Shown here: positions 50,463 to 61,690 of the stretch, one piece after another
How the letters are laid out: the number at the start of each line of letters is the position of its first letter
How positions within the stretch are numbered: position 1 is the stretch's first letter
Virus record (IMG/VR): IMGVR_UViG_3300046787_000286
Span: 142,060 to 206,059 of that record
DNA length: 64,000 nt
Reading direction: 5' to 3' (one strand)
From: a virus
The notes under the pieces: generated by a model
The model's database searches: none
What the model saw: the letters and a program-made list of their open reading frames with translations, nothing else
Told to the model about the DNA's origin: nothing
Made by a program: the position numbers and the translations under genes

Positions 50463-50491
50463 ATTATAGCAAATCGGTAATTTTTGGTCAA
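50463..50491 (-). promoter_or_regulatory. Sigma70-type early promoter of the array operon
   Basis: TTGACC, 17-base spacer ending TTTGC, TATAAT; 24-base leader to 50432. No further promoter is seen before 45484, so about 5 kb and 21 genes depend on it. Confidence 0.88.
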
Positions 50492-50765: not shown

Positions 50766-50794
50766 ATTATAGCAAAACGGAAAATTCTGGTCAA
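50766..50794 (-). promoter_or_regulatory. Sigma70-type early promoter, leaderless geometry
   Basis: TTGACC, 17-base spacer ending TTTTGC, TATAAT, six bases, ATG at 50759. Confidence 0.9.
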
Positions 50795-58832: not shown

Positions 58833-58861
58833 ATTATAGCAAAATGGAAATTATTGGTCAA
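58833..58861 (-). promoter_or_regulatory. Sigma70-type early promoter
   Basis: TTGACC, 17-base spacer ending TTTTGC, TATAAT. The -35 lies inside the last codons of the upstream gene. 30-base leader to the lipoprotein ATG. Confidence 0.88.
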
Positions 58862-60065: not shown

Positions 60066-60094
60066 ATTATAGCAAATCGGGCAATTTTGGTCAA
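60066..60094 (-). promoter_or_regulatory. Sigma70-type early promoter
   Basis: TTGACC, 17-base spacer ending TTTGC, TATAAT; the same sequence, spacer included, as 31510 and 31778. 23-base leader. Confidence 0.92.
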
Positions 60095-60097
60095 CCA

Positions 60098-60120
60098 AAA
60101 GAAAAGCCCCTTGCGGGGCT
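60098..60120 (-). terminator. Intrinsic terminator
   Basis: Minus strand AGCCCC-GCAA-GGGGCT then TTTCTTTT; ends the phasin transcript. Confidence 0.85.
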
Positions 60121-60140
60121 CAAAATGTACTACTTGAGTA

Positions 60141-60407
60141 TTACTTTTTGAAGCTGAACTTTTCTGCCATGTCAGCGTATGCTTTGTTGAAGTCATACTT
60201 GGTAGCTTCTTGAGCTGTCTTTACTGCTTCGCTTGTGAGTGAAGTGAAAGTGTCCATGCCAACCTTAGCTGCCTTCTTTGTGTAGTCGGCTTGTGCATCA
60301 ATGAACTTGATCAATGGTGCTTTGACTGCTTCGTTTGTTACGAATGTGTTGATGAAAGTCTTTTTTGCAGTTTGAACTGCGTCGATGGTTGCGTCTGCTG
60401 TAAACAT
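60141..60407 (-). CDS. Phasin-like protein
   Basis: 88 residues, helical, amphipathic and without signal: MFTADATIDAVQTAKKTFIN, then AAKVGMDTFTSLTSEAVKTA and KYDFNKAYADMAEKFSFKK. The pattern and C-terminal Tyr/Phe-rich end fit the phasin family (PhaP/Phasin_2), which coats polyhydroxyalkanoate granules. Host phasins are usually 150-190 residues, so this is a short one. It could bind host granules or redirect stored carbon. A candidate promoter at 60470 and a terminator just after make it monocistronic. Confidence 0.78.
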   Translation of the reverse strand: MFTADATIDAVQTAKKTFINTFVTNEAVKAPLIKFIDAQADYTKKAAKVGMDTFTSLTSEAVKTAQEATKYDFNKAYADMAEKFSFKK

Positions 60408-60469
60408 AATGTTCTCCTTAAATAAGCAAGTTTGCTACAAGACCCGGCCTATCCAGCGTCTCATAGTAT

Positions 60470-60499
60470 ATTATATATGATCTATATATTGAAGATCAA
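60470..60499 (-). promoter_or_regulatory. Sigma70-type promoter candidate for phasin gene
   Basis: TTGATC, 18-base spacer, TATAAT; weaker spacing than the other sites. 56-base leader with AAGGAG before the ATG. Confidence 0.5.
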
Positions 60500-60514
60500 T
60501 GGGTTTTTGTATGT

Positions 60515-61690
60515 TTAGTGACGACTCACTAAATCTGCAACCTTTTTACCTGTAGCCGGGCCTAGTGTCCATCCCAAATGTCCGTGTCCTGTGTTGTAAA
60601 ACACATTTGGGGTAGATACACTTTGGCGAATAATTGGCATCATGTCTGGTGTCATTGGACGCAAACATGCATACTGAGTGTAATCATGTGTGTTAATGTT
60701 TGGGAAATTAGTATGCACCCATTTCAACAACGGGTCGATTCGATCTCTAGTGATGTCGTAGTTTTCACCTGCCAGCTCTGCTGTGCCTGCAACACGGAAA
60801 CGATTGCCTAATGTTGCTGTAACAATTTTTGCTTCGTCATCTAATAAACTCACTCGAGGCAAATACTTAGGATCGACATTGTTGATTGTGATAGAGTAAC
60901 CCTTGACTGGGTATACATCAATTGTGTCTCCCGCTGTCTTGGCCAATGCTCGACTGCCAACTCCGTTTGCAATCACAATAGCATCGTAAAAGGAAAGTTC
61001 TTCCACATGTCCAATTTTCCAGTTGTAGTGAAATTCAACTCCGTACTTGGTCTCTAAGATTTCTGCAAGGCTATAACAGAACTTGTGAATGTCTCCTGTC
61101 CAATCTTCCTTGGTCCATGTGCCACCGATAATATTCTCAATATCACCTAGTGCAGGATCCATTGACTTTACATGTTGACTGCTTTGTAGCAAATCCCAAC
61201 TGCATCCGTTGGCATTATAAAGTTCTTTAATATCTTGTGCATTTTTCCAATAGTCGGGATTCTTGTAAAAATGCAAGATGCCGCAATCGTTACGATCAAA
61301 ATCGATATTCTCATCGCTACAAATCTCATCGTATAGCTGTCTGCTTTGAATACCCATCTGAACAGTCGAACTAGAGTTGCGATAACAAACATCGTTGACT
61401 GTTGCTAACAAAAATTTAAACACCCAACGCCACATTGCCCAGTCTAGTCTCCAACGAAACTTTAACGGAGCGTCTTTCTTGAACATCCATTTGAAGCCTT
61501 TCTTGACATTGCTCCATGTTGTCCATGTTTCTGAATTACTAACTGATATTTGTCCACCGTTGGCAAAACTTGTTTTCATGCCAGCATAACGTTCAGCTTC
61601 GTATACTCTAACTTTGTGACCGGACTTTGCCAGATAATACGCTGAACATAGTCCCGTAATGCCTGCGCCTACTACTGCTACTTTTTTCAC
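60515..61690 (-). CDS. D-amino-acid dehydrogenase-like FAD oxidoreductase (DadA-type)
   Basis: 391 residues from a GTG (61690). KKVAVVGAGITGLCSAYYLA is the FAD-binding Rossmann motif (GAGITG), followed by RVYEAERYAGMKTSFANGGQ, the DadA-type second block. The C-terminus YACLRPMTPDMMPIIRQS and NTGHGHLGWTLGPATGKKV has the RPxTPDxxPxIG and G-x-[GT]-[HT]-GxT motifs. It would oxidise D-amino acids at the membrane or in the cytosol; the electron acceptor is unknown. A perfect TATAAATA box lies upstream. The phasin gene follows. Confidence 0.82.
   Translation of the reverse strand: MKKVAVVGAGITGLCSAYYLAKSGHKVRVYEAERYAGMKTSFANGGQISVSNSETWTTWSNVKKGFKWMFKKDAPLKFRWRLDWAMWRWVFKFLLATVNDVCYRNSSSTVQMGIQSRQLYDEICSDENIDFDRNDCGILHFYKNPDYWKNAQDIKELYNANGCSWDLLQSSQHVKSMDPALGDIENIIGGTWTKEDWTGDIHKFCYSLAEILETKYGVEFHYNWKIGHVEELSFYDAIVIANGVGSRALAKTAGDTIDVYPVKGYSITINNVDPKYLPRVSLLDDEAKIVTATLGNRFRVAGTAELAGENYDITRDRIDPLLKWVHTNFPNINTHDYTQYACLRPMTPDMMPIIRQSVSTPNVFYNTGHGHLGWTLGPATGKKVADLVSRH

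Follow-up and report, generated by a model that had tools for sequence, protein, structure and literature searches.

A candidate RNA thermometer of the ROSE type precedes a phasin-like gene and chaperone genes in large phages

A small gene of a large phage genome is preceded by an RNA leader that folds as a short thermometer of the ROSE type and is homologous to bacterial ROSE elements, and the same class of leader recurs before chaperone genes of other large phages. The gene lies in a window of 64,000 nucleotides, positions 142060-206059 of a 214,006-base virus record (IMGVR_UViG_3300046787_000286, hereafter G000). The explanation that we favour, with a probability of about 0.78, is that heat opens the leader and so controls the translation of a phage stress regulon, to which the phasin-like product of this gene belongs. 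The first-pass annotation of the window had described the gene with a promoter and a terminator of its own, and had overlooked the structured RNA leader that separates the two start signals of transcription and translation. The features of the locus are as follows:

60141..60407, minus strand: open reading frame of 88 amino acids (ATG at 60407, stop at 60141), small, helical and phasin-like in appearance
about 60408..60466, minus strand: 5' leader, candidate ROSE-type RNA thermometer (R1 match 60405-60467, ROSE_3 match 60402-60465)
60436..60465, minus strand: hairpin I, (U)AUGAGAC-[G]-CUGG / AUAGG loop / CCGG-GUCUUGU(A), with a bulged G at 60457 and covariation
60414..60430, minus strand: hairpin II, CUU-[G]-CU(U)...(A)AGGAG, with anti-Shine-Dalgarno UUGCU at 60429-60425, bulged G at 60427 and Shine-Dalgarno AGGAG at 60418-60414
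60499..60470, minus strand: sigma70-like promoter, TTGATC-18 nt-TATAAT, with 10 of 12 consensus matches, conserved in relatives
60121..60104, minus strand: intrinsic terminator, stem-loop GAGCCCCGCAAGGGGCTT followed by TTCTTTT, position conserved in relatives
60515-61690: DadA-like FAD oxidase (DAO family), adjoining the 88-amino-acid gene

Codon comparison with the closest relative (91% at the amino acid level) revealed 15 synonymous and 8 non-synonymous codon differences, third positions accounting for 19 of the 28 base changes, indicating that selection acts at the protein level on the 88-codon frame. Relatives of the protein are spread across IMG/VR, where 33 were obtained by protein query alone and at least 147 stretches by alignment query, and the open reading frame proposed earlier is thus a real gene. 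No relative was detected by tblastn in cultured-phage records and no homologue in bacterial genomes, in which two weak fragments were judged to be chance. The proposed promoter and terminator were also upheld. Promoter matches of equal quality numbered 40, as compared to 31.8 expected by chance; we accepted the promoter despite this chance-level single match because it is conserved in relatives, in which both the -10 box and its distance from the leader are kept. Transcription is predicted to start at the base of hairpin I, near 60463. Most relatives carry a similar terminator hairpin at the equivalent place. Since promoter and terminator are both its own, the gene forms a single-gene unit.

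Some further elements were noted around this unit. A palindrome, TACTCAAGTA(G/T)TAC, lies directly 3' of the stop codon (window 60127-60140) and is conserved in many relatives. In relatives such as L050 and L035, the -35 position of the promoter is taken up by another palindrome, TGTTGCANTGCAACA, which is degenerate in the window near 60486-60500 and is perhaps an operator. Four near-identical strong promoters, TTGACC-17-TATAAT with an extended -10, are present at window positions 60066-60094, 58833-58861, 50766-50794 and 50463-50491, and probably represent a repeated phage promoter.

The leader of the relatives is about 60 nt long, and its sequence varies while the fold is kept: hairpin I with its bulged G is followed by U(U/C)GCU paired to AGGAG around a bulged G, and then by ATG. 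A covariance model built from 21 phage leaders (R1) matched 61 of 62 sources carrying the gene, the 21 training leaders being among these; in one relative (L144/L033) the gene is present and the leader absent. When 60 leaders were aligned by fitting to the structure, pairing was retained in 96.9% of cells as compared to 85.5% in shuffled and 34-57% in slid controls, and double-change cells numbered 111 as compared to 27.5 in shuffles. Leaders of hsp20, groES and dnaK genes that had not been used to train R1, aligned in the same structure-fitted manner, were paired in 97.2% of cells against 80.3%. Independent of any structure-fitted alignment, one helix showed the compensations GAGAC/GUCUC, GGGAC/GUCCC and CAAC/GUUG. 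From the first MAFFT alignment, RNAalifold recovered hairpin II alone, because hairpin I had been misaligned by MAFFT.

The structural traits that mark a ROSE element were found in this leader. UUGCU pairs with AGGAG, a pairing present in 98.3% of cells over the 60 leaders; the bulged G opposite the Shine-Dalgarno sequence is present in the aligned leaders; and a 5' hairpin with strong covariation, hairpin I, stands ahead of the thermosensing hairpin. Homology to known members was also evident. ROSE_3 (RF02523) was the top Rfam family for the window leader (25.7 bits, E 0.005, direct scan of 801 bases) and matched independent relatives at the equivalent leader site with up to 34.4 bits, the best phage hsp20 leader reaching 39.4 bits, all of these being below the gathering score of 43 bits. 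A search of the whole phage record with RF02523 returned no match although the direct scan did, probably because of search filters. RF02523 matched 16 loci among 398 genomes from a single bacterial phylum; the gene behind 13 of them was resolved by motif read-out, 12 beginning like Hsp20/IbpA throughout and the thirteenth being a short frame that starts like IbpA. The phage-only model R1 in turn found 12 of these 16 bacterial ROSE loci, 11 of them at E < 0.01 and the best at E 6.8e-8 in 49 kb. Such reciprocal matching makes a chance resemblance unlikely.

The short ibpA ROSE element of Pseudomonas (PMC3669281) and Rfam ROSE_3 share with the phage leader a length of about 60 nt, two hairpins and an end just before the start codon, a hairpin I in which a bulged G and the motif GAYGCYG..CGGGUC are conserved, and a hairpin II that sets U(U/C)GCU against AGGAG around a bulged G. 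The phage leader differs in its location in a phage genome, in the phasin-like gene downstream, in a weaker hairpin II and in scoring below the Rfam cut-off. In Pseudomonas, the two hairpins span 61-62 nt and close the Shine-Dalgarno sequence when cool, and warming melts hairpin II while hairpin I remains folded (PMC3669281). In related elements, induction is reduced or lost when the bulged G is deleted (PMC3669281, PMC11342760). As the phage leader is the same in length, parts and position, we infer that it works by the same mechanism.

The same leader was found before phage chaperone genes. R1 gave matches in 20 of 20 large phage records, at the site before the phasin-type gene and at a second site before each of the 18 hsp20 genes found through Pfam in these records, where the match lay 130-142 nt before the start of the Hsp20 domain. 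The six hsp20 leaders that we inspected each run into the Hsp20 start codon, including that of the window phage itself, which lies outside the window at G000:213161-213223, about 10 kb from the 88-amino-acid gene. Taken alone this leader is weak (R1 17.1 bits, E 0.025), and the gene behind it is a clear Hsp20 (Pfam E 7.6e-19). A search for the exact sequence of the leader motif revealed no second copy in the phage, and the covariance model was needed to find the hsp20 copy. An R1 element also precedes groES in three phages, groES lacking it in four others, and precedes dnaK on the large contigs L274/L289 and L288. ROSE-type leaders were further seen before open reading frames of 8-14 codons (L297:192-254; L301:2957-3017, minus strand; L262:5069-5127); these short frames, encoding MSKHIYVT, MTKSLWPSWPS and MIKNLSPPDHSIST, lie about 120-130 nt upstream of phage groES-groEL, and each is possibly a thermometer-controlled leader peptide. 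Chaperone genes are clustered on some large phage contigs, as dnaK-hsp20-clpS (L274:3462-6219) and groES-groEL-hsp20-clpS (L297:388-3213).

Cultured phages gave a similar picture. By eye, ten of ten cultured-phage hsp20 leaders, among them those of Prochlorococcus phage P-SSM2, Synechococcus phage S-SM2, Sinorhizobium phage Phosso and Pseudomonas phage 30-2, showed two hairpins with the ROSE core, and R1 matched nine of the ten, seven at E < 0.01. Cyanophage Hsp20 (PMC3827213) thus shares with the 88-amino-acid protein a type of leader common to all ten cultured phages inspected, and differs from it in having an unrelated, alpha-crystallin fold. Since this leader control is common to the 88-amino-acid gene and Hsp20, the 88-amino-acid protein is most likely a stress protein, co-regulation being no proof of shared function.

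Hairpin II is predicted to be weaker in phages than in bacteria, with a median of -2.5 kcal/mol at 25 C as compared to -6.9 in seven bacterial elements, the window leader having -1.6; the energy model omits non-canonical pairs known in ROSE. The Shine-Dalgarno sequence of the window leader is predicted to open gradually, its mean unpaired fraction rising from 0.27 at 5 C to 0.58 at 37 C, and some relatives show little or no predicted trend with temperature. The weak hairpin II of the phages may mean a lower switching temperature, which would fit cool water, or a leakier element. The same weakness is also what would be seen if the leader were a translational operator or a 5' structure that stabilises the mRNA, recognised by a protein of the phage or of the host (a RegA-type repressor or a coat-like protein, for instance), with temperature not being the signal and the likeness to ROSE being one of form. 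Hairpin I is the most stable part of the leader and is very well conserved, and regA adjoins hsp20 in several cyanophages, both as such an operator would have it. However, the helix formed by anti-Shine-Dalgarno, bulged G and Shine-Dalgarno is conserved too (98% of cells paired), and the leader stands, as in bacteria, before classic heat-shock genes, namely Hsp20, GroES and DnaK. We therefore consider a protein-bound operator unlikely.

Under heat-opened control, the sigma70-like promoter would drive transcription from the base of hairpin I. At low temperature, ribosome binding would be limited by hairpin II, in which the conserved U(U/C)GCU would be paired around the bulged G with the Shine-Dalgarno sequence AGGAG; on warming, hairpin II would open while hairpin I stays folded, and the 88-amino-acid protein would be made. 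The gene would then be a member of a phage stress regulon under ROSE-type translational control, the same element preceding the Hsp20 gene of this phage and, elsewhere, GroES, the leader of groES-groEL and DnaK. The amphipathic helical protein would be produced alongside Hsp20 in infected host cells that have warmed up, where it would perhaps coat aggregates or granules, like phasins and IbpA.

The protein itself has a mass of 9.7 kDa, is rich in lysine and alanine and has three predicted helices (4-22, 26-70 and 73-84 in an AlphaFold2 model of mean pLDDT 84.9, which superseded a poor earlier model from 32 sequences). The long helix is amphipathic (muH 0.35, equalled by 0.3% of shuffles). The first-pass annotation had called the protein phasin-type, to be judged by its score against Phasin_2 (PF09361), and this name stands in part. 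In their small size, amphipathicity and helical make-up the bacterial phasins of Phasin_2 resemble it, and in a structural comparison with viral models the top two neighbours carry the UniProt name 'Phasin' (33-35% identity, Foldseek E 0.003-0.02). Profile-profile comparison with 27 bacterial phasins gave a probability of 18%, which is weak and exceeds 59 of 60 block-shuffled controls; the similarity is in register over about 30 residues. However, every family member scores below the Phasin_2 cut-off of 24.9 bits: none of 55 relatives scanned reached it, nine gave sub-threshold matches (best E 0.0026, displayed scores up to 17.9 bits), and unrelated helical families scored equally well or more often. 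The window protein had no match in Pfam, NCBIfam or PHROGs, nor to Phasin_2 even at E 1; PDB sequences gave nothing significant, solved structures yielded only helical look-alikes of the model without a significant PDB match, and a bacterial phasin profile failed to reach real phasins in phages. A phasin assignment by any of these routes was thus rejected. Given the sub-threshold Phasin_2 matches, the weak profile similarity and the neighbours named Phasin, the protein appears phasin-like and not demonstrably a phasin.

It had been proposed that this phage protein binds polyhydroxyalkanoate (PHA) granules, either for access to carbon or to block storage, jointly with the DadA-like oxidase beside it. 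Amphipathic helices, the Phasin-named neighbours and the weak profile similarity agree with granule binding, which would also suit stress control: IbpA, ROSE-controlled in Pseudomonas, is located on PHA granules and has been termed phasin-like (PMC10646324), a phasin shields E. coli against heat (PMC4117528), and since the coating of PHA granules and a protective effect under stress are shared by phasins and IbpA (PMC10646324, PMC4117528), the two roles are compatible. The proposal is nevertheless doubtful, as no member of the family reaches the Phasin_2 cut-off, no homologue was found in the bacterial genomes searched and DadA is unlinked. None of the 94 related loci has the DadA gene, not even the one with 91% identity, and the recurrent neighbours are UvdE (46 loci) and a ClpP-like protease (49 loci), so that a joint role in carbon and nitrogen supply finds no support. 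A search of bacterial genomes with DadA gave distant matches only. The oxidase is perhaps a recent acquisition of the window phage.

Proteins related to ClpP can be head maturation proteases, and Hsp20 has been suggested to act in cyanophage capsid scaffolding (PMC7674155). Both would suit a virion or assembly protein, small, helical and scaffold-like, whose expression is timed with capsid maturation. We hold this to be quite improbable, as the gene is a single-gene unit with its own promoter, its own terminator and a leader of the chaperone type.

ROSE elements and single phage thermometers are already known. The thermometer of lambda cIII is not known to be of the ROSE type. Like it, the fourU thermometer of SPbeta blyA (PMC10586365) and the sigma70 thermometer of a gut Caudoviricetes phage (PMC11182007) are temperature-sensing phage leaders; the latter two are not ROSE as far as is known, and all of these earlier cases concern single genes, with no element shared across a chaperone regulon. 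RNA thermometers were believed to be uncommon in phages: in PMC11182007, blyA ranks as no more than the second case from a phage genome, and one further case is added. In the phages analysed here, a single class recurs ahead of chaperone genes and stress genes in many large genomes of aquatic phages. We found no report of ROSE elements in phages in the open-access literature, most subscription journals being outside the search, nor of one thermometer class across such genes; that literature is incomplete and we claim no priority. We lean towards the wider view that large T4-like aquatic phages, cyanophages included, own a heat-shock regulon (Hsp20, GroES/GroEL, DnaK and the new phasin-like stress protein) coordinated post-transcriptionally by one ROSE family and tuned cooler than the bacterial one, so that infection output would follow water temperature. 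This would be a mechanism by which water temperature could directly set phage gene expression, and it is immediately testable in the cultured model cyanophages P-SSM2 and S-SM2, which carry the element. Guilt by regulation also gives a functional handle on an 88-amino-acid family without prior reliable annotation.

R1 gave some further matches before TctC-like, short or unknown genes (G408:173404, G407:125107, G409:317150, G410:56324, G410:118785, G411:134847, G412:25670 and G412:6395); we treated these as chance because they were weak and most had no hairpin I or core. A scan for the core followed by an MFT start also turned up Hsp20 genes, along with another family of short helical proteins (MFTEITKTFESNQKLAKEL...; L204, L205, L223, L232, L234, L244, L246 and L254), in which the ROSE core of hairpin II is kept and the set of upstream hairpins is different. 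A gene for a TctC-like tricarboxylate-binding protein is present in two large phage records (L347 and L348), which we take to be, possibly, a hint at a betaproteobacterial host.
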